Source of the DNA: Cheiracanthium punctorium
Lineage: Eukaryota > Arthropoda > Arachnida > Araneae > Cheiracanthiidae
DNA length: 64,000 nucleotides
Assembly (NCBI GenBank): GCA_038373885.1
Contig: JAWZYV010012283.1
Location: 310,001 to 374,000 of the forward strand
Direction: 5' to 3'
Below, one piece after another: positions 21,354 through 57,744 of this stretch. The position numbers and the translations under genes were made by a program. Each line of letters begins with the position of its first letter. Within the stretch, counting starts at the first letter, position 1. The notes beneath the pieces were generated by a model. That model saw only the letters and a program-made list of their open reading frames with translations, had not been told where the DNA came from and searched no databases.

Positions 21354-23032
21354 TGATGACAAATAAGAAATATTCTACTGTATAGAATATTTTACTTCTA
21401 CTGTATTAAGGTGAAGGAATAAATTTATGATTATTTGATAAAAATTTTTTATTACTGAATTAAGTTGGGGTGAGGGTAGTTTGTGTTTAATTAAGCAACA
21501 TTTTAGACGGTTAAAACTGGATATCATAACATATGCAGAATTGCAAACTGGAAGAAATATTTGTTCAGGGTCTCTACCATCATGCAAAGGTCACGAAAGT
21601 CACGGAAAAGTCAAGAAACGGCAAAAAGGTCACGAAAGTCAAGAAAAGGTCAAGAAATGAAGCACTAGGTCACGATTAGCAGCTCAACTACGCTTTTTCC
21701 ATTTCATTCAAATTCTTGGTTTCTAATTTTTCTGTGTTAAGCTCGTTGAGAGAAATTATTTTATATATCTTTTCTTAACATCATTAATTCGTATTTAGAT
21801 TTCATAAGTGATTTCGAGAAAGGAAGTTGATTTGTTTAGTCTCGTATTAATGGTGTGCGTGGAAAGGGGGGGGCATCTGCTGAGTGTCCGCTCTTCTCCC
21901 TCCCGACCTGAGGAGAGGGTTACAACCGTTCGCTGCAGCTTCAGGTCGTAAAATATCTCATTAGAGAAACAATCTGTCATTCAGAAGAGTAGTCATAACA
22001 ATAAATTATTTCCTAGTGCAAATGGCGCTTTATGGTGTTTTATAAATGCTGTAAGTAATTAATAAACACCACTTGGTTATCGTTTATTTTTTCAGATTTT
22101 CAAAACACATGCATCCAAACTTATAGCTGGCTGCACGGAAAGATTAAGACCACGGCAGTTCTGGAAGTGTGGGGGAACCCCCTCCCCCTTTCCTTCCTGT
22201 TGATGTACTAAAAAGAATAGGAAAAAATCGATTCATTGACAGGGTGTCCAGCAGTGGGAAATGTACCTGAATATTTCTCACGGCGGGAAAGTCGGGAAAT
22301 ACTAATTGAAAATATCGAAAATTCCGGACAGCATCGGAGCCAAATTGATGACAGCTCTGATATAGAACAATTTTAGGCAGATAAGGGGGTGGGAACTGTC
22401 AGTACAGAATTTGTGCCTGTTTTGCGGTCTCTCCACAAAAATGAAATCGTCGGCGATTGCGAGAATACAAGTCTTTTGTCGACTGCACCCGTCCCTAGGA
22501 TGTTCATTTTCACTGTAACTAAGCGCTCAGCAAAAGCCCAATCGAGATTGCGAAAATGCGCGGTGGGGAGGGCCATGGAAACTATTTTGAATTCATCGAT
22601 TGGAAAATTAAAAATTTGTGCAAGAGGGAAATTCTTTACGATCCCAGAAGTTTCGGGAGTTCTTTTATAATTATGTAATTATGAATATTACTCAACAATA
22701 ATTATTAAGACTTCTTGCCTCTTTAGAAAATCCGTTGTCGCCACGATAAGAGATGCCATCGTTGTCCCCCCCCCCTTTTTTTTTTTACTATATCATGCAC
22801 TTGCAATTCCCCCCTCCTCCCTCGGACACGTCTTAGCTAAACTGGCATTCCTATAACAGGTTATTTCCAAATATTATGCATATACAGTGCTGCAACTAGA
22901 GATCACGCCGCCCGGGACAAACTTTTGTTTTGGCACTCCCTTTCTTCCATTTCCATTTTCACGTAACAGCACTATGCTTAGGGCAAGTGTCCCGATTCCT
23001 CCTCTAGTTGCAGACTAGCATATATAGAGTAA
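21354..23032. other. no gene; repeat termini and AT-rich DNA
   Basis: 21567 begins CAGGGTCTCTACCA followed by several GTCACGAAAGTCAAGAAAAG motifs, a terminus-like sequence. 22243 begins CAGGGTGTCCAGCAG, another terminus-like sequence. Facing ends (GTGGTAGACACCCTG near 26010, GGTGGACACCCTG near 41090 and 50625) are far away and cannot be paired with certainty. No ORF has a recognised family. Confidence 0.35.
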
Positions 23033-24681
23033 AAAATTGCAGATGATGCCGAATACAATAAAATTGGAATCTAAAACAGTGTTTTCGGTCATTTCCGGGT
23101 CCGAAAATTTTCGTGATTATGAAAAATTTGTTGGCAAAACCAAATTCCTGTTATTTTAGGATTGCGAATTTTTTTTTTTTTTTTTTAAATATTTGCTGTT
23201 GTTGTTGAAATAAAGCATAATGGTGGCCGTACACAACTTCAAAAGTGTAGATTTCATTAAATGAAAAATTTGGTAGTTTAAAATACAAATCCCACCGCTC
23301 TTGAATTTATATATTTTGAAGTATTTTTAATAAAATTACGACCCATATTTTGTTTTAAAAAATAATCTCTTAAAATTTACTGTAAATGAAAGTACTGTAA
23401 AATTGCACCTGAAAAGGATTAAAAAAAAAAAGAAAAAAAAAAGAAAGCCGTTTCTTTTACAAATGTTTTTTTTTCCCTCCTAATCAAAACATCCACTCCT
23501 TCATTTTCATTATTATACGTAGTTCCGTTATTTTGCGATTACAAAACTCTATAATTTTTTAGTTTATTCTTTATTTCAACAAAAAGAAAAAAAAAATGAC
23601 GGTCTTGTACAGTATTTAAAAGTGTAAATCGTATTAGTGAAAAAAATTTGGTATTTTTGGATACAAATCCCCACCACACTTGAATTTTCCACGCATGAGG
23701 AAAGAAGTAAAATCATTAAGACAATTTGAATATACTTGTTCATACTTTACTAATTTTACGCTTTCGTTGTAAAGTTGATGGTTTTTTTTCCAATTTTTAC
23801 AATTTTATACGAAACTTCCGTTTTTTATGCTTTTAAATGATTTTTTTGAAGTTTTTTATTTTAATAAAGTAGGCCCCATATTTCGTTGTAAAATTAAAAT
23901 CTCTTAAAATTTATTATTAATGTGATTTTTCTGCAGTTTTGTTTATTTTAAGATTACTGAATGCCACCCGCATCTCTTATTTAAATTTGAAATAAAAATA
24001 AAATTGATTCTTATTTCATATTTAAATTAATTTTTGACCACTTTTTAAAATACAAAATAGTAAAGAAAAATTTTCATTGAAGATCCCAGGTTCAAATATG
24101 AACGAAAATTATACCAAATGATAGTAATGATAATGAAATTGAAACAAAGGCTGTTTTGATTAGGAAAAGTAAAATATTTGTGAAAGCCAACGACTTGGCA
24201 TGTTTATATATTTTTTTAATTCTTCCTTTTCAGGTGTAATTCTAGAGTGCTTTTTATGTACTACATAATTGCTTTTCCTCCCTTCCCTAACATGTTTAAA
24301 ATCATATAAATTTTGTGTGCAGTGTGATTTTTTTTTCTTTTTGTTTAAGAAATATATATTAAGTGTGTGTTGTGTAAATTTTAATATTTTATTCTATTTA
24401 AACTATGCAAATAGACTTAAAAGACTTTCATGTGTTTATTTCATGGGGAAACATTAAAATACTGTCCGTATGCTATTTATAAAATTCATTTAAAATGTCA
24501 TTTACATGTTATTTATCAGAAATCATCAAAAATGATGTCTGCCCAAAAGTTGTATAGTATATTAAACTGACAATAGATCAATTTGTCAATTGCGTGTTGT
24601 TTTACACCTTGGGAATTTTCAGAAGTTGGCAAGTATATATATATCTTCAAAACTTGAGAAAAGTATATCAGTAACCCGCTC

Positions 24682-24712
<31 letters not shown>

Positions 24713-24790
24713 ACAAAAAAAAAAAAGTTTAAGTAGTTGGAAACATTATTTTTTCTTCTTTCATTCCCTTTAAAATTCAATGTTTTGCTT
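23033..24790 (+). repeat. long AT-rich dispersed repeat, copy A
   Basis: Corresponds in order and orientation to 38014-40110. Shared landmarks are TTGCAGATGATGCCGAATAC (A) and its close match at 38019, AAATTTGTTGGCAAA, GTGTAGATTT then TTAAAATACAAAT, TCATACTTTAC / TCATACTTGCC, TTCAGGTGTAAT, AAATTTTGTGT, and a final C-run at about 24680. The unit with GTGTAGATTT and ATACAAATCCC occurs twice inside, so there is an internal tandem duplication. No coding capacity. It ends near (CA)n at 24699-24714. Confidence 0.75.
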
Positions 24791-26189
24791 ATTTTCTACA
24801 TTTTCTTTTTTAAAAACAATTATTTGGATTCTACTTAAAAATTATAATTATCACTGATCTCCATGTTTTATAGCTAATAACTTCAATATTTTTGCATCCT
24901 TTTGGTAAATGAATATTTACCCTTAAGTATTTTTTGTAAGTTTTGCATTTATATCACTAAAATCACTTATCTACACAAACACATATTTTGAATTAATATA
25001 AATTTCATGATTTTTTAATCCATCTGAAAGTTTGTATGCAAACTGAAAAGCTACACATCACACTGATTCTGTGATTTTGAAAGGATACAGATTTGGATTA
25101 GACTGATTTTGCATGGCTAAATAGAGAAAAAAAGAAAAAAATGGCTGATTTTAATTTAAATTCTTCTTTTTTTAATGCAGTTTTTAATGTTTGACTTTAA
25201 ATTAAAATAGGACATTTTTGGTAATTAAACTCAAAAGCTTGAGTACTCAAAGTGTTATTACAGTGTATACATTGCAATTGAAGTAAAGGAATTTTATTTT
25301 AAATAACTGATTTAAAATAAATTTTAATCAAGATGTTTTTTATATAAATCTTTAATGAAATAAATTTGTTTAAAATATTTTTAAATTTTACTATTGTTGG
25401 CGATTAATTACTTTTTAAAGTATTACATACTATCATAATCTGTAGGTAATACTTTATATTGTTTTCTTTTATTGAGTAACTCACGCAACTTAATGTTACT
25501 ATACAAAAATATTTACTAATATATATATTAATAGTGTTAAATTTAAAAGTATAACTTTCCTTCATTCTATCGGCATGATGCTGGAGTATAAAAAATGTTT
25601 TAAATCGCAACAACCCATATGAAAATTTCCCCAAAATTTCATGATATGTTATAGACTTGCATAAGTTCTGTATTACCACAAATGTAAAAAGATCTGCAAT
25701 GTACAAGCTACATGCATGTTTACTAAATAGCAATTGGTACAAGTTAACAGAAAGCAAATGGCTGATCGGTGAAAATGTTGAAAAAAAATCGCTTTAAAAA
25801 TGATAAGGTAAAAGAAAAACTGGAAGAATTTTGTAATTCATTGTTATAATTGAAATCAGTTTTTTTTTTTTCTGCAAAATTTCCCCCCGATCCTAGATTG
25901 CCGGATTGCACATATTCTGCATCCCAGGCACAATGCATTTTTGATATTAAGATTTTGTATTTACTATGGTCAAGAAAAGGTCAAGAAATCAAGTTTACTT
26001 TATGTGGTAGACACCCTGTTGTAAATTATTTTTTTTACAACTAATTAATAGAATAAACCTAATAATTCTGCATAATTACATCATTAAAGTAGGATTTTCA
26101 GTATAACTTGAATTTTGTTATGAGTTTAAGAATCAACAATCTGAATGGTGCACCATCTTATTAAAGCTTGGAAATGTAAATGATTGGAA
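24791..26189. other. no gene; AT-rich DNA
   Basis: Only AT-rich sequence and a terminus-like GTGGTAGACACCCTG near 26005-26019, preceded by GGTCAAGAAAAGGTCAAGAA. Short ORFs show no family. Confidence 0.4.
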
Positions 26190-26375
26190 TACGAAAAAAT
26201 TTGCTTACACTGTTGACACTGTGGAATTTTGTGACACTGATGAACTGAAAACTCAGATTACAGAGACCATTCAGACTACTGATCCTTCAATGCTTCACAG
26301 AATGTGGCTTGAAATCTTGTATAGACTTGATATGCAGCACATGACTAATAGTGCACACATTGAAATTGTGCAATA
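26190..26375 (+). pseudogene. transposase-like C-terminal fragment
   Basis: An open stretch in one frame reads FCDTDELKTQITETIQTT, then MLHRMWLEILYRLDMQHMT and NSAHIEIVQ before a TAA. The pattern of a helical segment with a W-x-E-x(2)-YRLD core and a terminal GAHIE-like motif is widespread at the end of mariner/IS630-type proteins in arthropod genomes. There is no start codon or catalytic domain, so it is a scrap. AATAAA follows the stop directly. Confidence 0.45.
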
Positions 26376-27643
26376 AAATGTTGCAGAAAAAAAAAATTTG
26401 ATATTTTGTTTATGGAACATAAAAAACTGTAAGTAAATATCTTTGTTTATTTGTACTTAAATTTTGAAAGTTTTACTTTTCAGACATCCTATATTAGTTA
26501 GGCAATTTTATGTTGAAATTTTGAAAAAACCCAGTTGGGTTTTTTCAAGTGGGTTTTTTCGGGTTGGGCAAAACCATAACAACACTGGAAATGTACTATA
26601 AAATGACCCAATTTTTTTTTTTCAAAGTTACTTTTGATAGAAATTTTCTTAGTCTTCCTATTTTGAATTTCGGTCTAAAAAAAAAAAAGCAGTGTCTTTT
26701 CTTTTTCCTTTTTATGAAAATTAACTAGTCCTTCAAATTTTAGATTTACATGATTCTACAGTATAGTCTCAGAGGAAATATTTTGAAAATTTTCATATTT
26801 CTGGCACTGTAAATTTATTTCTTACCCGGAGTGAAAGTTAACCAAAAAGTGGACTTTTCTCACAAAATGCCAAGTTTAATAATTTTTTTCAAAAAATGAA
26901 AAAGCTTTTCGAATTTGAAATTTGTTTCAGTTCACAGTATGATTTCTGAGGAAACACTCCACAAACTTTCATAGTTCTGGCATTGTAAGTTTATTGCTGA
27001 TCTTTATTTTTATTGAAAGTCCATTAAAAACGTCTTCCTCTGAAAAAGTGTCAAGTTTAACAGTTTTTAAAAAAAAATTAAATTCAAATTTTATCTTAAT
27101 ATCGGACATCATTATAGTTTCCGAGGAATCATCTGGAAAATTTTCGTAATTATGTGACAGTAAGTTTATTCCCTATCGTTACCGAAAGTCAGCCAAAATC
27201 CTCCATTTCCAGGTAGAACAGCTTTAACATGCCATGACTATTTGGTATCGGAGTATCTTTGTTTACTTTTACAACCCTTGATGATAACTCCACCTTCAAA
27301 GTCTGGCAGAAAAGTTGTTCCAACAAAAAGTTGCTTGCATTTCACCGTTAGTGTGATAACCACATAGGCTGCTCCTTGACCAGTTGAGCTTTCCTCATCA
27401 TTGAGCTTATATTAAGAATTCCTTGGTGGCTTATCTCAAGTATCCCTAAAATTACACATTTACTACATAACCCTAAAATGCAACCATTTTCAGGTGATCA
27501 AAGCAAATGTAGTTTGTATGTTTTTTTCCTTCACTGCCTGACACTGCAACTCATTTAATTAATTTTAAGAAGCAACTTCTTTCTATAAAAGTTCTTATGT
27601 TTTAGATTATTATTGATATTGATAAGTCACTTTTTGCTTTTAG
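26376..27643. other. no gene; diverged tandem repeat and upstream flank of the GTPBP2 exon
   Basis: 26525-26580 has GGGTTTTTTC-type repeats. 26755-27230 carries about three diverged units of roughly 176 bp (see separate repeat entry). 27230-27640 is unremarkable and ends in a TTTTTGCTTTTAG splice acceptor. No promoter can be called. Confidence 0.4.
26755..27230 (+). repeat. diverged tandem repeat, about 3 units of ~176 bp
   Basis: Units begin near 26758, 26933 and 27108. Each contains, in order, a GAGGAAA/GAGGAAT motif, AAATTTTCATA-like text, CTGGCACTGTAAATTTAT (or its variant with GTAAGTTTATT) and GAAAGT(T/C)A. Units differ at many positions, so the array is old. Confidence 0.6.
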
Positions 27644-27851
27644 CTTCATCCACAGTCAATGGATTCCTTTGTGGGTCTTTTTGATCCTGAATGCCAAGAT
27701 GAAAATGTGAATTCTGAAAACACTATGATTCCCAAGTCTTTACCACCAGAAGCTGCTGAAGGAAATATCGAATATAAACTCAAACTGGTGAATCCATCAA
27801 ATAGTCGTTTTGAACATTTAGTAACACAAATGAAATGGCGTTTACGTGAAG
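27644..27851 (+). CDS. GTPBP2: GTP-binding protein 2 (GTPBP2), first coding exon
   Basis: This exon encodes the N-terminus of a GTPBP1/2-family translational GTPase, cytosolic relatives of elongation factors linked in animals to ribosome rescue and mRNA quality control. The acceptor is TTTTAG at 27638-27643; ATG 27659 starts MDSF, and the in-frame TAG overlapping the acceptor excludes upstream extension within this exon. After about 28 poorly conserved residues comes the family block SLPPEAAEGNIEYKLKLVNP and RFEHLVTQMKWRLREG, which matches GTPBP2 better than GTPBP1 from memory of the vertebrate proteins. The exon ends GAAG before GTAAAA, phase 1. The GTP-binding G-motifs lie in later exons outside the window. 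The CDS part is 27659-27851; bases 27644-27658 would be 5' UTR if the acceptor is used. Confidence 0.93.
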
Positions 27852-27915
27852 GTAAAAATACATTTTTAATGAAAATCACAATGCATTTTATTTGTTTTTT
27901 ACAATTAGTATAGTG

Positions 27916-28363
27916 CAGAGGTTCCCAAGCTTTTTTTGCCGTGGCACCCTTGTCAGGCTAAAAACATCTCGCGGCACCCTTCTAAGGCTGAAAATTTTCG
28001 CGGCACGTTACCGTTAAAGCAATTAGGTTCAAATGAAAGAGTTTTGGATGCATTTTTCATTACTTCTTTTATGTTGTTTATAGGCTAGCAAGAAAGTACT
28101 CTCTTGGGAAAGGGATATAGAATTTTTACATCTCTCTCTCATTTCAGGGAGTATCTGTGAAAGAGAGGCTACTGGACACTGAACTCTCTCCAACTTGACT
28201 GAAATATTTTAATTTTGCCCACTTGGTCACTGGCTTGGCTAACTTTTTTGTTGGATACCGGTTAGGAGGAAATTATTTGATTATACTTCACCGAAACACT
28301 TTTCTTAATTATCTCCACGGCACCCCTGACATACACTCGTGGCACACAGTTCGGGAACCTCTG
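27916..28363. mobile_element. hAT-type MITE 64 bp into the GTPBP2 intron
   Basis: Ends are CAGAGGTTCCCAAGC and, read inward from the right, CAGAGGTTCCCGAAC. A perfect 8-bp duplication GTATAGTG flanks it (27908-27915 and 28364-28371). CAGAGGTTCCCAA ends are widespread among animal hAT MITEs. No ORF. Confidence 0.92.
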
Positions 28364-29639
28364 GTATAGTGTAAACTGTTATTTTTTTTTTTTTTTACAA
28401 AGTTTCTATGTTCACGGGGAACAAAATGATTTTAAAAAAAAGTATAGCATGAAGGAAAAAGAAAAAAAAATGTGAATGTTTCCAATAATGAATTTTTGTT
28501 GTAGAAGAAATTTATTTAACAATGTTCAACAACTTAAATCAATATTTTAATCATAGTTAATTCATCTTTAAAATAAAATCACTGATAAAGAAAAAAATTA
28601 AAGTTCCTTTTTTATTTTATTTTTTTCATTTTTTTTCCCATAATTCTTATTTTTTATACAGATATCAGTAGTGCTGGTAAAATTTTTCTTACAGACAGCG
28701 TGTCCACTGGTGACTAAAAAGGAGACTTTTGCTACTAATTAAAAGATAATGTGACTTTGGCGAGTTTTTTGAATGAAAAACATCATTTTCATACTATTTT
28801 CAAGTTTTTTGGCTACTTGTACCTGTTTACTTTTAAAAAAGTACTTTTTTTTAAAAAAGTACTTACGTACTTTAAAAAAAAGAAAAGAAAATATATTTGA
28901 GGGTCAGCTGCATTATAAGAATAATGGAAACTTCATTAAAATGAGCAACTCTTTTGAAAACTCCTTAATGTAAACAGCAAGAAGAGAAATCAGTTAATTT
29001 TTAAAAGTTATCCAAGAAATATGAAAGTTAAAATCACACTAAAATTCCTATACAGTTTGCAATATTGTTTTTTAATTATTAATTTTGAATGTTGTTGCTA
29101 CTTACATACATTGGTGAAAAGTGAAATTAATTTCTTACCAATCGAATAATTTGACTTTTATTAATAATAGCTGAACAGCACTTTGTCAAAATTTCACCCC
29201 AAGTCCCAATCTGAGACTAAAATAACCGGTACTTCAATCTTTGGCTGATGCATGATAAGTCTGAATGGCCTTGTGGTAGCATGCTAGTCTGTGACCCAGC
29301 GGAGGAAGAGCTTTATTTTCAGAAAAACGGAAAGTTATCATCCAAAAAACAAAAACATAATAAACAGAACTGACATTTTTTGAAAATTTTGCTGCCAGTC
29401 GTTTATTTTTTATTAACAAATATATTTGAAACAGTTTATCGGTTTCTTTTCGTTATTTCATCAGAGTCATTGGGAAACGATGATTGGCTTTATGGCCCCC
29501 CGAGAGGACATTTTGTACCAGTTGCCGATGAAATTTCTCCTTTTTTGGATGAAAAGCCGTGATCGGCCATTGCTCCTTCTCCTCGGATTAAACTCACCTG
29601 CCTCTCATCGACCAATGGGTTATTGCTACTAGGGCCTTC
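28364..29639. other. no gene; AT-rich DNA, unidentified moderate-GC patch
   Basis: 28372-29420 is AT-rich. 28835-28870 has a palindromic AAAAAAGTACTTTTTTT run. 29440-29630 is less AT-rich but has no recognised family; a Tigger reading frame becomes visible only from about 29640. Confidence 0.35.
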
Positions 29640-30533
29640 TAATTTGTGCAAATGTAAGTGGAACTGATAAATTGCCCCTGCTTCTCATCGGTAAATGAAA
29701 GAAGCCGAGACCATTTAAAAATATTAATGTGAATTCCTTGCCTGTGAAATACACAAATCAGAGGTCTGCTTGCATGAATTCCGAAATATTTGAAAAGTGG
29801 TTCTATGATGAGTTTGTGCCACATGTAAAGGAGCATTTAGTGCAGCTAAATCTCCCACCTAAAGCAGTTTTGCTGATAGACAATGCTCCTTGTCATCCAG
29901 AAGAAATGCTCATTTCAGGAGAAATACGGGTGATTTTTCTTCCCCCAAACGTGACATCGATAATACAACCAATAGATCAAGGGATAATTGAAACAACGAA
30001 GAGACACTACAAAAAGAAACTCATCACTCATATTCTTGAATGCAAAGAAAACCTAAATGAGGCACTGAAAAAAATAAATGTGAAAGATGTTATCTACATG
30101 GTTGCCCAGACACGACAATTAGTGAATACAACTACAATTCGTAAATCATTCAACAAAATAATTGTTGAAAAGAGGAGATAGGGTGAATCCCAGCAGACAG
30201 TAAACACACCAACAGGCAGGGAACTTTGAGATCATCAATGGAATTGAAGGCTGTGAAGAAGTTTTGGAAGAGGACATTTGCGAGTGGCTGGACGTTGAAA
30301 ATCAGCATCCAAATTTTGAAATTCTCAATGACGAAGAAATCATACAAGCCATTAATCCTTCATTGGACATTAACCCTTTAAATGCCGCACTGTGATACAG
30401 GAATAAAATATATAATTAATTCATCAAAATTACATTGGAATACACCCATAATGACTATAAAACAAAAAAATTGGCATTAAAAAATTTCCTTCACTGATTT
30501 CTTGGATGTTCCATTTTTGGAACATTGGCATGT

Positions 30534-31453
30534 AATGCTATCTTTTCTTTTCTGTATTTGCTTCATGTAAACAACAAAACGCTGTATGATAACACTAAAA
30601 TTTTATGCAGTAATAAAGTTTTACTTGATAATTAGGTGCAAAGTGACTAAAATTTAAGCAAAACTCAATTAAAAAATTGCAATTTTAAAATTAGCATAAT
30701 ATTTTATAAAAAGTGCAATGCATAAATGTATAAAAGAACGATAAAAGCAATTTTACGCTTGCATACTCTTGACTAATAATACAGATAATATAAATAAATG
30801 CAGTTTTAAGAATGTCAGCTACCTGATCAAGAAGTAATAAAATATTTTATTCTTTAGAGGGTGGTTAGAATTTCAACCAGCAGTACAAAAATTTAAAAAC
30901 CCACTAAAACACTAATTTCTTTTAATTTTTTAGAATTTTTTTCGTAATGTCTATGATATTGTGGTAAGTATACATGGAGAATTTTCTTGCATTCAAAACA
31001 CATATTTACAGTATTTATTTGTTTATTTATTTATTGGTATATTAAAAAATGTCCTTATCATGTAAAAACGTCATGTGCATCCGAAGTTTTTGCAGATTTC
31101 CATTGATAGCTCCGGGTAATGTTGATATTAGGCTTCGTTTGAAACAAATTTAAATTAATTTCTCTTCTAAAATTCTATTGCCCACACGTTTCCAGGTGTA
31201 ATCAGCTCAAAACTATTATAATTTATTTCTTATCAGTAATGCACCCGTTTTCATCAAGAGGCAATTGACAAATTTCTACGATTGACTTGTTTCAATCATC
31301 TGACATGGAACTTTTTAAAAAATTAACATTGTCTACAGTTATGAATTTCTTTGACTGCACCATCTACATTGTTTCTACAAACATCTATACAAGTTCTTAC
31401 TGAAATGGCCTCGAAAATTGCAGAGCATAGAAAGAAAATCAGGCACGTGGCTT
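30534..31453. other. no gene; internal AT-rich part of the piggyBac-type element
   Basis: No ORF with a family signature. Contains a short (TTTA)n near 31014-31035. 35538-35879 is the other internal part and is likewise non-coding. Confidence 0.4.
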
Positions 31454-32484
31454 GATGTCACTAGGGCCGGCCCTAACAGTTTTGCCGCCCCGGACAAAAA
31501 TATAAAATGCTGCCCCCCCCACAGTAAAATTACTATTATAAGAAATAAATTGTTCACAGATACTGTTTTCATACCTATAAAACTGGAATAACTTTTTAAA
31601 CATAACACAGCATAAGAAAAACCATATTTATTAAAAACCACACATTAAGTTAAAATCCAAAAGAAAGAGAGAAAAATAGTTTTTTTTTTTCTGACTTTTA
31701 ATTCTGCAAAATTCCTGACTTTTTCTCTTAAATCAATTTTTCAACTAATTCATGTTCAATAGCCAATGTAGTTAAATTATTTAACCTATCTGGAAGAGTT
31801 ATGGAACATAAGAAATTTTTAGCTTTAATTTTGAGAAACCCTTCTCTGTACTTGCCACCCACACAATTATTGGCAAAGAAAGCGAAATTCTCAAAGCAAT
31901 AGCAAGATGTGGTGTAAAATCGATAGTTGAAATTAGCTTTGAAATTTCAATTGGGCTTTCCTTTTTGCCTAATAAGGCCGTAACTGACACTATTTCATTT
32001 ACTAGATCAAGCGCGTTTATATTCCCCGATTCCCCATCGGTCAGCATTAACTCCAATTGTTTACACTATAAACAGTGTTACACTGTGTTACAATGTTTAA
32101 TTAGCACTTTTTAGGAGTGTCTTTTAACTCATTTATGTCGTGCAAAAATTTAAAATAATTACATTGGGTACTTATTAAATTAAATCTGCACTCTAAGGTA
32201 TTAATCGCTTTGTTTACTGTAGAAAAATAAAACCATCTTAAATTTTAATTTAGGATCTTTCACCAGATCATCTCGTGATTCGCAATCAAAATTAATATGT
32301 TATGTGGCTGCTTAAACAGAGTGTTAGCCAGAATACTATGTCGTCGGTCAGTTCTCTTGCATAACAGAACATTTCATTTAAAATCGCATCCAATCGAAGA
32401 TCCTTTCAAAAAATCATTACAGTTATTAGGCAAGTTGGAGTGTATAGGCTGATTAATTTTATTTTTTACCAACTATGCGAAAAA

Positions 32485-32555
32485 TTCCAGAGCTGGGAAT
32501 CGAACCCAGGACTGCCGCATAACGTGCGGGTGCTCTACCACTGAGCTACTCTGGG
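32485..32555 (-). tRNA. tRNA-like sequence, unit 1 (probable pseudogene)
   Basis: Minus strand. The cloverleaf order is CCCAGAG acceptor, TAGCTCAGTGGTAGAGC D arm, CCCGC-ACGTTAT-GCGGC anticodon arm, CTGGGTTCGATTCCCAG T arm and CTCTGGA. Six of seven acceptor pairs and a perfect T stem form. Both pol III boxes (TAGCTCAGTGG and GGTTCGATTCC) are consensus. By position the anticodon would be GTT (Asn), but base 33 is C instead of the invariant T and one anticodon-stem pair is lost, so it is likely a tRNA-derived repeat. Confidence 0.55.
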
Positions 32556-32634
32556 ACGATTCCCAGATGAAATTTCTCGCATTAGAGCATAAATGCCAAC
32601 GGCTCTAATACGAGAAATTTCATCTGGGAATCGT

Positions 32635-32705
32635 CCCAGAGTAGCTCAGTAGTAGAGCACCCGCACGTTATGCGGCAGTCCTGGGTTCGATTCCCAGCTC
32701 TGGAA
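32635..32705 (+). tRNA. tRNA-like sequence, unit 2 (probable pseudogene)
   Basis: Same structure as unit 1 on the plus strand, with one change in the D loop (CAGTAGTAGAGC instead of CAGTGGTAGAGC). The acceptor, anticodon and T arms are identical. Confidence 0.55.
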
Positions 32706-32921
32706 TTTTTCGCATAGTTGGTAAAAAATTAATCAGCCTATACACTCCAACTTGCCTAATAACTTGAAAGGTGATGGAATCACTTTCTAAAAAAATGTAT
32801 AATATCCGCGGTGTAATGGAGTTGTCGCGAATTAATTGTTTCATCTGTTCTATCTGTGGTTTGCAGAGGAAGATGATAAATGCCAACGGCTCTAATGCGA
32901 GAAATTTCATCTGGGAATCGT

Positions 32922-32992
32922 CCCAGAGTAGCTCAGTGGTAGAGCACCCGCACGTTATGCGGCAGTCCTGGGTTCGATTCCCAGCTCTGGAA
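32922..32992 (+). tRNA. tRNA-like sequence, unit 3 (probable pseudogene)
   Basis: Identical in sequence to unit 1 across the 71 bases, plus strand. The consensus pol III A and B boxes remain. No T-run terminator follows directly: the downstream text is AATTTTTCGC, where the TTTTT could serve as a terminator. Confidence 0.55.
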
Positions 32993-33429
32993 TTTTTCGC
33001 ATAGTTGGTAAAAAATAAAATTAATCAGCCTATACACTCCAACTTGCCTAATAACTTGAAAGGTTGATGGAATCACTTTCTAAAAAAATGTATAAAATCA
33101 TTAAAGTTTCTTAAGAGTTCTAGAGCAGGTGGTAAATCCTTGTCTTTTGACTGCAATAACTTTCTTAATGGATTCACGCAATTGAAGATTTTGTACCAAA
33201 TAATAATAGAGCATAGGAACATGAACTGTTTGAGAGAGTTAAATAATCCTAGCCCCATTGGAATTAGATTTGTCAATACCTTTATACCTTACCAAGAACG
33301 CGATCTGTTCAATTTTTTTGGCATCAGGAATGCAATCTAGAAATATGGGATAATATTTGGCTTGTTGAAATTCATTAACAAACTGTAATTTGAATCCAAC
33401 TGGAAATCTTGTGAAAAATCTATGCAAAA

Positions 33430-34239
33430 TGTGTAAATATTTGTTTGAACATCACATATAAACAACTGAACAAGAGCGTAGCCAGGATTTTCATTAGGTG
33501 GGGGGGAGCACGACAAGGAGAGCCAGCAGGGAGGCAGCTGCCCCCCTGCCTCCCGCTGGCTAAGCCCATGCTACTGAAGCGAATGAAATTAAATTTATAG
33601 CAAGACCAAAAGTGGCAACTTAATTTAAACTGCAGTTGCTAAAATATTTCTAATTCGTTTAAAAGTTTTGAGATTTAAAACTGTTGTTTGAAAACTGTGT
33701 GTAAATGTATGTTCGCCCATCGTTAAAAAATGGCTCAATGGAATAGACTGAAATTTGGAATTATATTAAATGGTAAGTTAATTGAAACAATAGATAACTA
33801 TATTGTTTTAAATAATTTATAGGCTTTGAGAGTTTGTAAAAATTGCTTTAAAAGTTTGTTCTGGTATCCATCAAAAACGAATTAAGAGAACAGAATGAAA
33901 TTAGACCATATGATGGGTAACAAAGTATCATCGAAATTTTAAAAAGATTTGAATAAATTGAAAGGGTTTGCAAAAGCTCCATTGTATTTTTTCTTTTCTT
34001 TTTTAGGGGGCGGGGAGAGAAAGGGAGGGCTTCACTTTAAGGCGTCTGGAGGTAATAATAGGTGGCTGTTCGACTTACGTCGAACAATTACGACAAATTA
34101 CGTCGGTTTCTTGTTTTATTATTATTATTTTTTTAATTTGAGAAAATTGTGCAAAAACTTTTACAGGCATAATTTTAAAATTTCTAAAGTTAATAGAAAA
34201 AAATTCATTTACTATCGATGAGGTTGAATTAAGTAACAT

Positions 34240-34289
<50 letters not shown>

Positions 34290-34853
34290 TTGAGAAAATT
34301 TTGTGTGACCACTTCGTGAAAACAACTAGTGGTCAGACAAAAAGGGGATAAAATGAAATTTTGTTAAATAGTAGGCGGTCAGTAAATTAAAATTTCAGGT
34401 TTTTAATTTTCTACAAATTTGAATTATTTCTGAGGTATGACTTAAACTTTGATAAAGTTTTTCGCGCATCAAGTAAAATCATCAAAATATAATTCAATCG
34501 GACGTTGCAGTGTTAAACATTGGCTACTTGCTATTACAAAGGATTTTCCAGATATTCTGTTTTCAGTTTAATATTCATTATTAGCTTCTTCTTTTGCAAC
34601 TTTAAATGACATCTTGATGTAGGAAGCTCATCCACTACAAGAAAACGTTAATTTTGAATGTAAAATATTTTCTCTATTGACAGTTTGTCTTAGTAATTTG
34701 TTACTCTCTAACCTGTAATCTTTGAACAATACACAAGAGTTATAACTTTGTTTTCTATACTTCTGTCAGTATGTTAATTCCATTTTTGTTACTACTACAA
34801 TGCAAACGAAATTTCGCACGGTTAGTAAAAGCCCATCAATGACGGATGGGTAC
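33430..34853. other. no gene; internal hAT sequence, GC palindrome and (TA)n
   Basis: 33478-33580 has a GCGTAGCCAGGATTTT-type repeat ending, with a GC-rich hairpin at 33531-33563 (AGCCAGCAGGGAGGCAG facing CTGCCTCCCGCTGGCT). 33600-34230 is AT-rich. A (TA)n microsatellite of about 45 bases follows at 34242-34286. The rest is AT-rich and non-coding. Confidence 0.45.
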
Positions 34854-35361
34854 TAGAGATGCATTCAGGCTCATTTTTTGAAGCCCGAGCCCGAGGACTT
34901 TTAATCAGAGCCCGCCTGAGTCCGAGCAGTATTATTTAAGTCGGAGCCCAAGCCCGAAATCCAGTTAAAGATTTTTTAAAAAATTCAATTACTTCATTGA
35001 TAGAATACAATAAATTTTGCCGTTTGTGCAAATTAAAGACAAATATAGTTGCAAACTCCCAATGCACTTTCTAATTCTTTGTATCCATCCTTTATCAAAA
35101 AATGTCGAATCTCATGACTAAGGAGTATAAACCGCTGTTCTAAAATACCCAAAGAGCTTCACGCACCTTCTAGGGGCCGTGCCGCTATTTTTATTTGTTT
35201 ATTTATTTATTTTATAAGTACTTTTATTTTCCTAATGAATCACTTTTTAAAATCTATTTCAAGCAGTATGTTCAATAAAGGAGAAATTCTTCACCCGCCC
35301 GAGCCCGAACACAATTGTGAATTACAGAGCCCGGGCTCGGGCTGAGCCCGTCTCATCTCTA
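34854..35361. mobile_element. hAT-type MITE with GCCCGAGCCCG motifs
   Basis: Ends TAGAGATG and CATCTCTA are exact inverted 8-mers. They are followed inside by repeated AGCCCGAGCCCGA-type motifs on both sides. ATGGGTAC is duplicated perfectly at 34846-34853 and 35362-35369. No ORF. It lies inside the 31462-35529 hAT element, so it inserted later. Confidence 0.88.
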
Positions 35362-36614
35362 ATGGGTACATCAGCTAGTAAAGTTATATAGAATGATATT
35401 CTTCGGAATATTTTTTAACAATTCTTTTACTAATATGAAATGTATTTTTCAAATTCGAGCCAAAATGCCGCTCCTAAAATTTGCCACCCCGGACAGGGGT
35501 CCAGTTTGTCCGGCCCTAGGGCCGCCCCTGATGTCACTTCCTCCCATGAGTTCCCTCTACATGAGAAGGACTTAAAATAAGCAAACAAACCCTTGTGAAG
35601 CACGCATTCATACTAACAGAAGAAACAAGTAGCATCTGAGCTCAAATCAGAGGAATGCAGCACTAACTATCCACCTCCTTCTGGCAAAGGGGTAAAAGAT
35701 ATGACAACTTCCCCATTATCCCCCCCTCTATCTAGTCCTTCACCCTTCAAAAATAAATAAAACATCGGTTATGCCTTTGACAGACTTATGTTCAGCAGAT
35801 ATAAACGCTGATTGTATCAAAATCTAATAAAGGAACACAAGCAACACATACATGAGACATCCCTGATTTCGTATATCGTTACATGCCAATGTTCCTTTTT
35901 TGGAACATTGCACTTTTATGCAAGATTGAGAAAAGATACCTTGATATATTGTGAATTTTTTTAATTATTTCCTTGAATCCATCCATTGGAAATAGAATAG
36001 GGGAATTTTCGGGTGAATTTGAATTTTTTTGAATTTTATAGAATTTTTTTCTTGTGTACTGTAAAAATTGTAAAAAAAAAAGTGATTTTTAAAAAATTTT
36101 CTGGTCTGAAATTTTTACATTTGGAAAATACTTAATATATCAAAAAATTAATCACACTTTCAATAATAAGCAGTATTTTTTTTCAAACTGATAGACATGA
36201 CAGTTTATTTAAAAAAAAATATTAAACATGATGTTCCAAAAAAGGAACATTGGCATGTAAAAGGTTAATGATGCTGAAAATGAAGACAAGGTTTTTGAGG
36301 ATTCTACGAGTATAAGTCATAGTGAAGGTGTTCAAGCACTGACAACTGTCCTAAAATATTTGGAGCAAAGAAACGATGCTACACCAATTGATCTCCTGTT
36401 GCTCAAAAATTTGAGCGATGGGGCTGCCCATGATAGAAATTCTAGACTTTTGCAACGAAAGGTAACAGACTTTTTTAAAAGAATGTAAACTTAACCAATT
36501 AATGTATATTAAATTTTAAAAATACAATATTTTCTTGAAATTTGTATTATTTTTGAAAATGCGTCTCGATATTTAACTAAGTATAGTTAAAAAAAAAAAT
36601 TCCATTTTACTTTT

Positions 36615-37593
36615 AGTTAAAATCATATATCGAGGAACCTTAGTTTAGATTTAAAAACATAATTAAAAGCCTTAAAACTCCGTTAAAAAGTTAAAAACAA
36701 ACCATTGGCGCTTTCGGCAGCACTAGGCTGCTGCCATCTTCAGAACAGGTGAGATTGCTCCCAGCTTCAGCACTTCAGACCATGCATCTACCAAAAAACT
36801 ACTTTTAACTTTAAAATCTCAATACTCCATTCTCATGTTAAAAGAACTCTTGAAATATGTTCCAACCATAAACTTCTTAAAGAAGAACTGCTATTTATTC
36901 AACAACTTTCCCAAGAAGCTAATTATCCCCAAAATAGCATGTCCCGCTTAATTAAAGAAAGGAAAAAGAAACTAAACCGCATTAGGAATGCTCAGAAAGA
37001 AAAACCTACGTTCTCTCATCCTATCTCCTACTGTTGCGGTCTCGCCGTGAAATTCTCCAACCTTGCACGTAAAATGAATATCAGAATCCCAATAAAACCT
37101 ACTTGTAATATCTTTAAAAGAATACGTTCCGATATAAACCCTTTAGAAACAGCTGGCGTCTATAAAATAAACTTTACTTATAAAAACTCTAACCTTCCCG
37201 GCCACTACATTGGTGTAACAAAAAAGAAAATTAAAGATAAGATCAAAGAGCACATTAGCGACATTAAATATGATAGACAAAGTAGTGCCCTCTCCCGCCT
37301 TGCTTTAATAGAAAATATTGATATTGATTTCACCAATGTTAAAAAAATAGCCAACTACAACAACCATAGTTACAGTTTAAAACGGGAAGTGTTAGAAATA
37401 CTAACTCAAGGGGGTGCCGTCAACGATAAGACGCATGCTCAGATTGTTGATGCATGGTCTGAAGTGCTGAAGCTGGGAGCGAGCTCACCAGTTCTGAAAA
37501 TGGCAGCAGCCTAGTGCTGCTGAAAGCACTATTGGTTTGTTTTTAACCTTTTAACGGAGTTTTAAGGCTTTTAATTATGTTTTAAAATCTAAA
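36615..37593 (+). mobile_element. Penelope-like element remnant with GIY-YIG domain and long inverted repeats
   Basis: Arms of about 146-150 bp (36644-36790 and 37446-37593) are inverted copies with few differences. Both contain AAAGCCTTAAAACTCCGTTA and CAGCAGCACTAGGCTGCTGCCA-type text in mirror orientation. A 15-bp direct repeat TTCCATTTTACTTTT flanks at 36600-36614 and 37594-37608 and may be the target duplication. It sits in the 3' non-coding tail of the 29640-37864 Tigger. Reverse transcriptase is absent. Confidence 0.72.
36939..37514 (+). CDS. GIY-YIG endonuclease part of a Penelope-like polyprotein
   Basis: The frame is open upstream of the ATG back into the left inverted arm, so the ATG at 36939 is probably internal. 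Residues 1-20 are strongly basic (KERKKKLNRIRNAQK). A C-x-N motif follows near residue 56. The endonuclease motif is GVY at 73-75 and YIG at 90-92, with KKIKDKIKEH after it, where an Arg is more usual. Downstream SALSRLALIEN and a YSLKREVLEI segment fit the C-terminal part of the domain, and the last residues are encoded by the right inverted arm. In complete Penelope elements this nuclease follows a reverse transcriptase and makes the nick that primes integration. No stop interrupts the 191 codons. Confidence 0.75.
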   Translation: MSRLIKERKKKLNRIRNAQKEKPTFSHPISYCCGLAVKFSNLARKMNIRIPIKPTCNIFKRIRSDINPLETAGVYKINFTYKNSNLPGHYIGVTKKKIKDKIKEHISDIKYDRQSSALSRLALIENIDIDFTNVKKIANYNNHSYSLKREVLEILTQGGAVNDKTHAQIVDAWSEVLKLGASSPVLKMAAA

Positions 37594-38013
37594 TTCCATT
37601 TTACTTTTTAAAATTTCCATTTTAAAAAGTACTTTTTAAAATTTTACTAGAGTTGATTTCCTTTTTAAATCTTTTTAGGTGTAAGACATAAGTTCACATA
37701 TGTTTATTTTTATCATTTAAAACATGTTCTATTGTTTTTTTACTTTAAAAGTTAGTTAAATTTGCAAGCACGGAAGGTTTTTATACATGGTTTCTATTAA
37801 CCAAGATTTCCGATATCTGAGGTACTAGCAGTCCCAATTAGCTCGATTAATCGAGGTTCTACTGTAATTACAAACTACTACACAGCATTAATTATTGACT
37901 CTTTGACTCTTACGTCTCTCCTAGTCTTCCCCCTTCTTTCTATTTTGGCGTAACATCACGATACCTGGGGGCACATTGCCCTCCCCTAGTCGAGGCCTCT
38001 TCATACTTATTGA

Positions 38014-43861: not shown

Positions 43862-45772
43862 TTACATTTTTTCTTTTGTGACTGGCTTGGTCAACAAATC
43901 TGCTACGTTCCAACTTCCAGGAACTTTCAATAATTGAAAAAGTCCATCATTTAACAACTCTTTTACAAAATGGAATCTTATATCAATGTGTTTATTTCTA
44001 GTATTCTCAACTTGATTTTTACTGTAATAAATAGCACTTCCAGAATCGCTGAACATAACAGGTTTCTCAATTTTAATTTTCAAAATATCTGCTCCTTCTT
44101 TGTAAATTTTATGCAGCCAAAGTAATTCTTTACAGCATTCAGATATGGAGATAAACTCAGCCTCCATCGTCGACAAAGTGACACACTTTTGTTTTCTTGT
44201 TTTCCAAGAAATTGGTATATTTTAAAAGAAAATTATAAATACAGAAAAAGATCACCTACTATCACGATCGGAGGCCCATGAAGCATCAGTAAATGCTTCT
44301 TGTTATCTATGGTTAAGGCTATGAAATATTCTTCAGTTGAAATTACATAATTTAAAACTTGACATAACAATCGTAAGTGTATTGAAGTTGGGCGAGAATT
44401 AAATTGAGCTAACATCGTCACCGCTAATAAAATATCTGGTCGGGATTGAGTTGCTAAAAACAATAACCATCCGATCAGCTGTCTATATTGGACTTCTCCT
44501 ACAACAGAAGGCTCATTGCCACTCGCTACAATTTGGCCAGGCGACATTGGCAATTTACATTTAACAAAAGGAATATTTTAAAATTTTTCTTTTAAGACGA
44601 CTAATATACTGCTTTTGGTGAATAGCCCAATTTCCCCTTGAATCCTTAAATTCTATACCTAAAATTTTCTTTATTTCTCCTAAATTTTTTATTTCGAATT
44701 TAGATTTTAAAAGTTCAGTGACTTCATTTAATTGAGAAAGAGATCTTGAGAATACTATTAAATCGTCTACATAGATCAAAAGTATACATTTTAAGGGGTG
44801 CACACAATTCATTTTTGAGAAGGGGGAAAACCCCAGATTTAACAAAGTAGTATTAAGCTCTGAATGCCACTGTCTACCGGCTTGATGCAAGCCGTAGATT
44901 GCTTTATTTAATTTCAAAACATGCAATTTTCGTGTAGTACCATCAGGAAAATTAAAGCCCATAGGCATCTTCATAAAATGTTCACGATCAAACCGACCAT
45001 AGAGGTAGGGGCATTTTACATCAAGGTGCCTATGGAACCATTTTAAGGAGAGGACCAAAAGACTTGTAAATTTTGAGGTAATTTATCTTTTTCTAACAGG
45101 TGAAAAAACTTTGTCGTAGTTCATACCAAATATTTGGTTAAAACCCTGGGCCACGATTCTTGCTTTAAAACCACTTTTTAATGGCGGCGTGGATTCCTTC
45201 AATTTGAAAACCCAACGGGAACCTATGATTCTTTTATCAGCTGGTCGAGGCACTAAGGTGTAGACTTCTCTTGCTTTCAGAGTAGAGAGTTTCTCATCTA
45301 TGGCATGTTTCCACTGGGAGGCTTCTGGGACCACTACCGCTTCTTCATACGTTGAGGGGTTCACGATGCATAGAAAGGAGATTTCACCTTCAGTAGAATC
45401 GGGCTCAGAATCTTCATCGCTTGTGACTTGAGGGGAGGGTGCAGGATTCGTATTTTTAAAGTAGGCAGCATCGTAGATTATACTGTGAGAGTCACAGTAC
45501 TCCTTGACCGTTTTGGCTCCTCTCAGACGTAGATTGGAGTTTGGTGGGTAGTAATACACATCAATCCGACCTCTCGTTTTGCTGCTAGCTCTCTCCTTCT
45601 CCACGAGATGCCAGGGAACATCTCGGCAATGTGTCGATTCAGCGGGGAATTCTTCGGAGAGGGGAACTGATCTTCTTGGCACAGTGTCTGCATTTTCTTC
45701 GGGAACTTCTGCCAGTTGAGGGATAAATCTGGAATTAGAATTGAACAAAACGTTTTTAGTGTATCCCTTCAC
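43862..45772 (-). pseudogene. copia reverse transcriptase and RNase H
   Basis: Read on minus from 45772. A linker leads to SRWVFKLKESTPPLKSGFKA and QIFGMNYDKVFSPV, the start of the copia RT. It breaks near 45070 and continues with WFHRHLDVKCPYLYGRFDRE, YGLHQAGRQWHSELN and the catalytic LLIYVDDLIVFS (ORF 45058-44561). A further break precedes YRQLIGWLLFLATQSRPDIL (44553-44233). RNase H is 44176-43862 with STMEAEFISISECCKELLWL, FSDSGSAIYYSKN, NKHIDIRFHFV and a closing NVADLLTKPV. Catalytic residues are present; three or four shifts break the frame. Confidence 0.88.
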
Positions 45773-47420
45773 AAGCTCATTAAACCGAACGTGTTTCGTC
45801 TCTAAAATTTTTCTTTCTCTAGAAAGCCATATGCGGTACCCAACGGTGTCAAACGCACATCCGACAAGGACACCTTCTTTGGTTTTTGGGTCAAGCTTAT
45901 CCCTCCTGTTTCGTTCGACATGTATATAGGCTAAACTGCCAATAACTTTTAAGTATCAAACACTGCATTTCTTTTGAAACAATAAAGTATAGGGAACTTC
46001 ATTAGCTATGCTTCTATGAGGAAAACGATTATGTAGATAAATGAAAGTATGTGCTAGCTCAGCCCACAAGCCTTTCGGTAATTCGGCTTTAATTCTCATG
46101 GCACGAATACCACCAGACAAGGTCCTATTGAGCCTCTCTGCAATGCCATTCATCTCTGGCGAGTATGCATTAGTCCTTTGATGGACGATCTCCCTATCGG
46201 TAAGAAATTCTTCAAATTTGTCAGAGCAAAACTCAAGGCCATTGTCTGACCAAACAGCCTTTACTGGCTTATCAAACTGTTTTTCCACTTTCAAAAAATA
46301 GTTGTTAAACTTTTCAAAACAGTCACTTTTATACTTGAGAGGAAAGACCCAGGCGAATCTTGAAAAATCATCAGCAGCCATGAGGAGATATTTCACGTGG
46401 CCAAATGAGGGACCAGACGCGCTACTCCATATGTCGGTATGGATTAATTCCAAAGGCTTTTCGACGTTTGTTCACCATAGCCTTGGAAATGGGCACGCGT
46501 CATCTTCGCTTGTATACAGGGGTCACAAAATTGCAGATTACTGCTTAACTTGCTCAGGCCATAAACTAAATTCTTTTTAGCTAAATATTTCAATACCTTC
46601 GCATTCTGGTGACCAAACCTGTGGTGCCACATCATGATGTCATTTCGACAATTACTTTTATTGCTGACCAAAACTTCTGCAGAAGGAAGGTCCGAAATGA
46701 TCTTTGAATGGAATAGATACAAACTTCCCACTAATGGGGCTATTCCCATGATGTTACCTCTAGAATTTATCATTGTACATTTTAAATTATAGATAACCTA
46801 ACGATGGCCATGTTTATCCATCTGACTTCCCGATATTAAGTTTTTCTTCAAAAACGGGCCCCAGTAGACTAAGAAGAGTCAGTACTTCGTTATGGCCATT
46901 CACGTTTAAGCTCAGTGAAACAGAACCATGGCCCTTGCCTTAATGGTTGTATCCCCTATACCTTGCACTTCAACATCGCATGACTGAAAATTTTTCAGAA
47001 AGGACTTGCAATGATCAGCGATGAAATGGTTTGACGATCCCGAGTCAACTACCCAGTCAACAGTTTTACCCGAATCGCTCAACAGACTTATTTCTTGATT
47101 GATTACAGCATAAGAACAATTATTGAGCTTACCTTTCGGTTTCACTTTTCTTCACTTCTTACTTTTCGGCATGATTTTACATTGGGGGGAGAGGTGTCCA
47201 GGTTGTCCACAACGGAAGCATTTTCTGGTTTCTTTTCTGACTTCAGGTTCGTCCACTTTTGGCCTCAGGAATCTTAGTCTAGTCCTGCTTCTTCTGGAAA
47301 TCAACACATTTTCGCTCCGAGCAGTAGTAGTTTCTTCTGCGACGTCACCAGATTCATATGCGGCGACTGCGCGCAGGGCTTTTGCACGCAGCCTTACCTC
47401 GAAAGAATCGAATAATCAAG
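45773..47420 (-). pseudogene. copia gag zinc knuckle, protease and integrase
   Basis: On minus, residual gag (KALRAVAAYESGDVAEET and following) leads into one zinc knuckle CFRCGQPGHLSPQC at 47220-47179. The aspartic protease active site is VVDSGSSNHF within 47145-46912. GAG-pre-integrase WHHRFGHQNAKVLKYL and an HHCC-like CDPCIQAKM follow at 46773-46444. The integrase core 46453-45956 has DDE residues in LIHTDIWS, AVWSDNGLEF and MNGIAERLNRT. A decayed linker (about 45955-45773) precedes the RT part. The polyprotein is broken near 46910-46790, 46450 and 45955. Confidence 0.88.
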
Positions 47421-47424
47421 GACT

Positions 47425-53876: not shown

Positions 53877-53885
53877 TGATGGAAA

Positions 53886-55780: not shown

Positions 55781-55801
55781 AGGTATATACGTTTTTCCAT
55801 C

Positions 55802-57604: not shown

Positions 57605-57744
57605 TTTCTTAATTAATTCAAAAACGAATTCGTATTTAAACGTACACTTGAAAAAAATAGAACTTATACTATTTTCTTATCGTAACTTATCTTCTCGTAC
57701 TTATCTTATCGTAAAATCTGGATTAGTTTATCCCACTTCTGAAT

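Follow-up and report, generated by a model that had tools for sequence, protein, structure and literature searches.

Palindromic arrays of a tRNA-bearing repeat with Penelope-like insertion ends in a transposon nest of the spider Cheiracanthium punctorium

Short interspersed elements (SINEs) derived from tRNAs carry a tRNA-like segment and are dispersed with target duplications, and fold-back transposons have long inverted repeats of tandem subunits. Both sets of features occur in a repeat family of the spider Cheiracanthium punctorium, which we describe here from a copy at positions 32423-33094 of a 64,000-nucleotide stretch of contig JAWZYV010012283.1 (GenBank assembly GCA_038373885.1, positions 310,001 to 374,000 of the forward strand; hereafter the window). 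This copy, a palindromic array of tRNA-like units, lies within a nest of other transposable elements. The family differs from tRNA-derived SINEs in its multimeric palindromes, in showing no tail of the type found in long interspersed elements (LINEs), and in an end asymmetry like that of the tail of Penelope-like elements (PLEs); it differs from fold-back transposons in its unequal ends (A and B, below), its variable duplication length, and its lack of a conserved center. We consider it likely that the arrays belong to a non-autonomous, tRNA-bearing retroelement of the PLE type, each insertion being the product of two target-primed reverse transcription events that copy multimeric or circular RNA.

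Integration of PLEs has been studied in Anolis (Poseidon PAc) and Adineta vaga (Penelope). Passages of the Anolis study describe cutting and extension of both target strands, two adjacent internal start sites, and a 30-40 bp tail that corresponds to the stretch between these start sites (PMC11167929). For A. vaga, passages on element structure describe inverted pseudo-long terminal repeats, one of which carries a 31-bp tail, and duplications of 8-10 bp, with exceptions (PMC3846280). As far as these passages go, the tRNA arrays resemble both systems in their head-to-head ends, 30-40 nt tail, short duplications, and tandem organization, and also in the preference for AT-rich targets described in vitro (PMC11167929, PMC3846280). 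Unlike PLEs, the tRNA unit has no open reading frame (ORF), carries one tRNA-like gene, forms arms in which the number of short units can exceed 20, and has no hammerhead in the stretch scanned. Metazoan retrozymes without long terminal repeats (LTRs), in the portions of the report that characterize them, are likewise non-autonomous tandem arrays of 170-400 nt units with strongly self-paired RNA, duplications of more than 4 bp, and coexisting PLEs, but the arrays described here have a tRNA-like gene where no hammerhead was detected and are palindromic, an arrangement that those portions do not mention (PMC7229834). PLE integration and retrozymes are known; what appears to be new is a ribozyme-free version with tRNA-like genes and a regularly palindromic layout: in a search of the open-licence literature, none of the titles or abstract openings among the matches listed describes tRNA-bearing PLE-type palindromic arrays. 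PLE integration is little understood, and the 2024 in vitro study, in the part that addresses them, calls the later steps yet to be validated (PMC11167929). The tRNA-array family would supply many natural, readable PLE-type insertion products without coding sequence (27 examined, 566 candidate stretches), and if tRNA-like genes spread as palindromic arrays by this route, estimates of the number of tRNA genes and pseudogenes in animal genomes may be too high.

Structure and ends of the tRNA-unit arrays

The window array is 672 bp long and comprises three unit matches in the order minus, plus, plus. Its outer ends lie at unit positions 186 (A) and 227 (B), and at its center position 19 is joined to position 6 with no filler. 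The components are listed below.

32423-33094, unstranded: palindromic tRNA-unit array, with a minus arm (32423-32588) ending at A and a plus arm (32589-33094) ending at B
32411-32422, unstranded: left target duplication of the array, AAATCATTACAG
33095-33106, unstranded: right target duplication of the array, AAATCATTAAAG
32484-32556, minus strand: tRNA-Asn(GTT)-like gene in the minus arm (ARAGORN; Rfam RF00005, 55 bits)
32634-32706, plus strand: tRNA-Asn(GTT)-like gene in the plus arm (ARAGORN; Rfam RF00005, 52.7 bits)
32921-32993, plus strand: tRNA-Asn(GTT)-like gene in the plus arm (ARAGORN; Rfam RF00005, 55 bits)

A search of the genome (2.53 Gb, 15171 contigs) showed that this unit belongs to a dispersed family, with 589 overlapping matches from the best 39 of 566 candidate stretches, many of them in long arrays and in both orientations. 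From the top of the match list we drew 27 insertions; outer ends were compared in the 25 with both ends in hand, centers were analyzed in 17, and units were compared over 139 complete copies, with partial units left out. The windows that define ends A and B were fixed after the first copies had been inspected. An array on contig C5068 was scored as one insertion interrupted by Copia. Contig C10712 (loci L009 and L010) is 99.9% identical to the window over 20 kb; because it must represent either a duplicate or a second haplotype, it was excluded from the counts. Loci L001-L003 and L005-L008 correspond to the window, to C10712, or to loci already included under other numbers.

Several features recur throughout this sample. 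First, the units repeat with a period of 291 bp (exactly 291 bp in 130 of the 139 complete units), and the arms range from less than one to more than 20 units. Second, 26/27 insertions have the same head-to-head order, with minus units followed by plus units that diverge from the center, the remaining array (L015) having minus units only. Third, identical strings of 10-15 bp, scored by a criterion of at least 9 exact bp, are present at the outer ends of 20/25 insertions as compared with 6/600 mismatched pairs. Hence, the repeated flank that a sequence-only reading of the window had noted around this tRNA-like block is a duplication beyond chance, but that reading's assignment of the block to the DNA transposons does not hold, as the block probably moves through RNA. 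The shared strings are 76% A+T, as compared with 66% for the window. Fourth, every one of the 20 duplicated insertions has one end A (unit position 181-191) and one end B (218-227), an outcome with a chance of one half to the power of 20 if A and B were equally frequent and independent; counting L011 and L035, 22 of the 25 insertions have one end of each kind. With A at ~184 and B at ~223, the offset is ~39 nt. Finally, at window positions 29316-29634 the insertion site of the C5068 array has an uninterrupted paralog: the left flank of that array matches 29634-29425 (94%) and its right flank matches 29433-29316 (93%), so that the two flanks overlap by 9 bp.

The unit itself is non-autonomous at best, because at 291 bp it is too short to encode a reverse transcriptase (RT) and a GIY-YIG endonuclease, and no Pfam domain was found in the window's array copy. 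Its tRNA-like genes fold as cloverleafs scoring 50-55 bits and are followed by a T run, as ordinary clusters of host tRNA genes would be. By eye, however, their acceptor and anticodon stems each contain a mismatch, and position 33, where U is nearly invariant in tRNAs, is occupied by C. Because of these two stem mismatches and the C, use of the genes in translation seems doubtful. The same irregularities, combined with dispersal by insertions that duplicate their targets and with head-to-head palindromes, make host tRNA clusters a scarcely credible explanation.

The arms meet in various ways. At the 17 centers, they overlap by 1-5 bp in eight cases, abut exactly in two, and are separated by 4-27 nt of filler in seven. 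These junctions bear on whether the family could be a fold-back DNA transposon, in which an unknown transposase mobilizes long inverted terminal repeats of tandem units. The target duplications and the long inverted arms of tandem units would suit such an element, but the two ends differ, all of the duplicated copies pairing A with B; the shared end strings vary in length; the center breakpoints differ in 15/17 copies, only L021 and L027 being alike; and none of the 17 centers holds more than 27 nt of other sequence, the Copia element in C5068 lying off-center. We regard a fold-back transposon as improbable. Comparably improbable is a tRNA-derived SINE that inserted by LINE twin priming and later expanded in tandem by unequal crossing-over. 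The tRNA-like head would suit such an origin, L1 twin priming can yield inverted 5′ parts, and the patterned variants of two arrays (L014 and C5068, described below) could stem from later block duplication. Instead of monomers with a LINE-type 3′ tail, however, the copies are multi-unit palindromes with A/B ends; head-to-head inversion is the rule; the array ends inspected lack a poly-A or microsatellite tail; and short copies such as the one in the window also have ends A and B, with an offset that matches PLE tails.

Two arrays have additional structure. In C5068, the interrupting sequence (L017:2295-8461) is a Copia-type LTR retrotransposon, as judged by eye from its ORFs. In L030 (C5891:173000-176000), one arm consists of 106-114 bp sub-units that run from unit position 71 or 78-79 to 184 and end at A; this sub-unit is a derived shorter repeat ending at site A.

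A Penelope-like family in the same window

A PLE copy, overlooked in the sequence-only reading, also lies in the window.

36615-37591, plus strand: truncated PLE copy in the Tigger element, with left end B carrying the tail and right end A

Between head-to-head inverted 3′ ends, this copy has a C-terminal ORF of a putative GIY-YIG type (36753-37511). Its inverted arms (36644-36791 and 37446-37593) are 93% identical, and a 17-bp duplication, AATTCCATTTTACTTTT, is present at 36598-36614 and 37592-37608. The family is large (106 matches from the best 40 of 1767 candidates), and some other copies are also head-to-head. We sampled 19 loci (the window copy and L039-L056), six of which had two arms within reach. 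Five of these six have one end A (arm position 141-150) and one end B (177-179), ~31 nt apart, and three of the six share 12-18 bp at their ends as compared with 4-10 bp in 30 mismatched pairs. The PLE tail signature, with one end A, one end B, and an offset between them, is common to the tRNA arrays and this PLE family.

Upstream of the same C-terminal ORF, one of three loci scanned (L041) has an RVT_1 match with an E-value of 6.9e-05, below Pfam's cutoff, and no RT domain was found upstream in the other two (L047 and L055). The motifs GVPMGSP, YVDD, and GIY..YIG..K..EH, picked out by eye in L041, would fit a PLE. The RT piece of L041 had no match among PDB sequences, and the endonuclease part of the ORF received no name from Pfam, NCBIfam, PDB sequences, or protein homolog searches; a single-sequence AlphaFold model of the ORF was uninformative (pLDDT 37).

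Templates and a possible route of integration

Because head-to-head inverted ends, a tail, and a target duplication are shared with PLEs, we favor PLE-type integration for the tRNA arrays. In the route we envisage, tandem 291-bp units would be transcribed into multimeric or circular RNA, and the RT/GIY-YIG protein of a PLE, a family present in this genome, would bind the unit RNA in trans. Both target strands would then be cut ~12 nt apart, a spacing that the target duplications imply. Reverse transcription would be primed separately by each cut end, starting at A in one case and in the other at B, which lies ~39 nt further 3′; the two kinds of end are what we observe, and the priming would account for them. 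Copying would continue through the less than one to more than 20 units seen per arm, although some tandem growth may have followed insertion, and the arms would join head-to-head with the observed overlap of 0-5 bp or short filler. The outcome would be a palindrome of tRNA-like genes flanked by a target duplication.

Sequence variants within arrays bear on the templates. In L013, a GC>CG change is present in 7/7 full plus units and 0/6 full minus units; either each arm had its own template molecule or later homogenization affected one of them. Variants are uniform in L024 (4/4 units) and L011 (21/21), whereas one alternates over 7 of the 10 full units of L014 and another was seen three times, at every third unit, in C5068, with one intervening unit unread. 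These uniform, alternating, and periodic patterns fit copying around a monomer, dimer, or trimer circle, but later block duplication could also have produced them.

These variants also help in weighing two other origins of the palindromes. Missed adapters in long-read libraries can create palindromes, and palindromic reads or collapsed repeats could in principle have generated arrays of this form during library preparation or assembly. Nevertheless, the flanks are joined by matching duplications, the same end asymmetry recurs at different loci, the arms of L013 bear different fixed variants, and the window copy is found on two contigs (perhaps one locus in two haplotypes) at 99.9% identity. 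An artifact therefore has only a very remote chance of being the explanation. A second alternative retains PLE insertion but derives both arms of the palindrome from one cDNA, which would prime itself or snap back on a single (antisense) template; such a mechanism has been proposed for Adineta. Passages of the published account put this forward for head-to-head PLE copies (PMC3846280), and on average a unit resembles those of the opposite arm about as closely as those of its own. One A and one B in every duplicated copy are easier to obtain with two starts, however, and L013 again has arms with different fixed variants. We consider self-priming unlikely.

Two observations concern the RNA itself. 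The predicted fold of the unit RNA has a free energy of -90.8 kcal/mol (z = -4.03), a value that no shuffled sequence out of 200 reached. A small hairpin lies in the stretch from A to B but is weak, the 48 nt that were folded giving -3.9 kcal/mol. A more specific form of PLE-type integration, which we put forward tentatively and hold to be possible but on balance doubtful, is that the template would be a small, viroid-like, strongly self-paired circular RNA of ~291 nt with a tRNA-like domain, and that each protomer of a PLE dimer would copy its own circle repeatedly, from a fixed start at A or at B. If so, each insertion would give rise to a mirror-image tandem array of tRNA-like genes, the unit would be a ribozyme-free counterpart of retrozymes, and PLE integration would always require priming on both sides, once at A and once at B.

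A number of results weigh against PLE-type integration as outlined here, or against parts of it. First, the published accounts fit it imperfectly. In the passages at hand, the in vitro work on Anolis found no difference in start site between top and bottom strands (PMC11167929), and the A. vaga authors, who explain head-to-head copies by self-priming, describe the tail as optional (PMC3846280), in contrast to the strict one-A-one-B rule in 20/20 duplicated tRNA arrays. Neither account predicts that rule. Second, 5/25 insertions (L011, L015, L016, L031, and L035) lack a duplication by the scripted exact 9-bp criterion; L035 carries a 13-bp duplication that the script missed when the arm match ran into it, and the other four show none. 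Third, the tRNA unit and the examined PLE family share only a 15-bp stretch (E = 0.056), and because the shared sequence is limited to these 15 bp, we only infer a PLE helper for the tRNA unit. Fourth, units differ on average by 2.33 positions from those in the other arm, by 2.25 from those in their own arm, and by 3.66 between arrays. Because the arms elsewhere are equally alike on average, a different template for each arm is seen only in L013. Variants are irregularly mixed in L012, L015, L016, L019, and L020, and tandem copy number could have grown after insertion. Fifth, inner arm ends fall at unit positions 19-23 in 8/34 cases, where ~0.6 would be expected if they were uniform, although this range was chosen afterwards. 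Because the inner ends cluster in this recurrent zone, ~30 nt upstream of the tRNA-like gene, some templates may have been linear with a recurrent 5′ end, and positions 19-23 are possibly the 5′ end of the template RNA. Sixth, a TTTTT run follows each tRNA-like gene, and a lone Pol III transcript, judged from this run, should not be multimeric. Finally, no ribozyme family was detected at E-values up to 10 in a 1-kb stretch of units (L012:3600-4600), and no ribozyme, hammerhead included, was detected at gathering thresholds in 12 of the 18 PLE loci outside the window locus. Because no ribozyme was found, the tRNA-unit family is not a retrozyme by the defining feature of that class.

The surrounding nest of transposable elements

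The array sits in a nest that is ordinary by itself. A truncated Tigger element contains a piggyBac-like element, which contains a hAT-like element; the latter holds both the tRNA array and a Helitron-like repeat, which in turn contains a miniature inverted-repeat transposable element (MITE). The PLE copy is a separate insertion in Tigger. The layers are as follows.

29316-29634, unstranded: dispersed repeat left of Tigger, matching the flanks of the C5068 tRNA array
29636-30373, plus strand: Tigger/pogo transposase, left-truncated (DDE_1 PF03184, E = 4.8e-41, profile positions 6-177)
30370-30373, unstranded: left TTAA target duplication
30374-36264, unstranded: piggyBac-like non-autonomous element, terminal repeats CCCTTTAAATGCC / CCTTTTACATGCC (11/13 matching)
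31462-35529, unstranded: hAT-like non-autonomous element, ends TAGGGCCGGCCC / AGGGGCGGCCC (reverse complement), duplication GATGTCAC(T)
34691-35381, unstranded: Helitron-like repeat that hosts the MITE, with a 3′ hairpin CCCATC..GATGGG and then CTAGT
34854-35361, unstranded: hAT-type MITE, terminal repeats TAGAGATG / CATCTCTA
36265-36268, unstranded: right TTAA target duplication
36269-36597, plus strand: transposase C-terminus and 3′ region past the piggyBac-like insert, where the open frame continues
37609-37864, plus strand: right part of Tigger with the right terminal repeat, then TA; the reverse complement begins CAGTAGAACCTCGATTAATCGAG

The sequence-only reading described a nest of DNA transposons in which the order of five insertions could be read. 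The nesting and the named layers stand, as do the duplicated target sites, all of which were found in place and are perfect or nearly so. The label does not extend to the tRNA-like block, which we interpret as a PLE-type retro-insertion, and the inventory lacked both the PLE copy and the Helitron-like repeat around the MITE. Empty sites and open-frame continuity support the order Tigger, piggyBac-like, hAT-like, and then the inner inserts. The order is only partial, rather than complete, because the tRNA array and the MITE-bearing repeat are siblings within the hAT-like element, the MITE being younger than its host repeat; the timing of the PLE insertion relative to piggyBac is not readable from nesting.

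Membership of the outermost layer in Tigger is indicated by its DDE_1 transposase, the match of the open piece having an E-value of 5.7e-33. The copy is degenerate: an in-frame TGA lies at 29696-29698, another stop occupies 30179-30181, and a different frame is used by the open stretch that leads to TTAA. Position 29640, which had been taken as a Tigger end, is instead a truncation, because 29316-29634 is another dispersed repeat; the DDE_1 match begins at ~29636 at profile position 6, and the left terminal repeat is missing, the other repeat abutting at 29634. Further left (20640-29640, plus strand only), no Tigger-type Pfam match was found that could represent the N-terminal half. Downstream of the piggyBac-like insert, 36269-36597 appears by eye to encode the transposase C-terminus, and we take the sequence at the far right to be the Tigger right terminal repeat.

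As the sequence-only reading held, the piggyBac-like element lies in Tigger with TTAA duplicated, and the coding frame is open across the split: the frame ..NPSLDI / NDAENEDKVFED.. runs open and in phase across the insert once one TTAA is kept. Both the TTAA duplication and the terminal repeats expected of piggyBac are present, and no piggyBac Pfam domain, including the DDE transposase, was found in six frames. The family is large, with 784 first-look candidates, of which the best 40 were scored. Among the other copies scored, 35/38 align from base 30374, where the query began, and the DNA beyond TTAA differs among L057, L060, and the window. Inverted subterminal repeats of 30 bp are present at window positions 35879-35908 and 36231-36260 (exact) and 30506-30538, and also in L057, L060, and L061.

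The hAT-like element lies in the piggyBac-like element between copies of GATGTCAC at 31454-31461 and 35530-35537, also as first read, and the target duplication is 8 or 9 bp, its register being ambiguous. In 5/5 fetched piggyBac copies this site is empty, with a single site copy (one lacks a site base and one has a 1-base shift). A Pfam profile search found no hAT transposase domain in 31462-35529. Within this element, 33478-33580 is a compact repeat that contains G and C runs and is bounded by GTAGCCAGGATTTT...CTGGCTAAGCCC, probably a further small insert, and 34242-34285 is a (TA)n run of ~22 repeats.

The MITE had been placed in the hAT-like element with a duplicated ATGGGTAC. The duplication is present at 34846-34853 and 35362-35369, but the direct host is the Helitron-like repeat inside the hAT-like element, because the empty-site paralog is a repeat that ends in a hairpin and CTAGT. 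In that paralog (L026), the MITE site is empty, with 71% identity over 203 bp spanning the junction. From 34691, which is only the start of similarity rather than a defined left limit, the host repeat matches L026, L045, and L011 at 71-77%. Helitrons end in a 3′ hairpin followed by CTRRT and insert between A and T; the hairpin and CTAGT are present in the window and L026, a similar end is present in L045, and a Helitron-like 5′ end was not found in these copies. No transposase domain was found in the MITE by Pfam profile search. In L045, a PLE copy lies directly at the end of the Helitron-like repeat.

Elsewhere in the window, ORFs identify a Tc1/mariner-like element (14043-15087; DDE_3) and a hAT element (19250-21353; DUF659 and a weak Dimer_Tnp_hAT match), and the intervals 43862-49185, 53069-57676, and 58092-59733 hold a Gypsy-like element and a pair of oppositely oriented Copia-like copies (all three assigned by eye) as well as a Tc5/pogo-like transposase.

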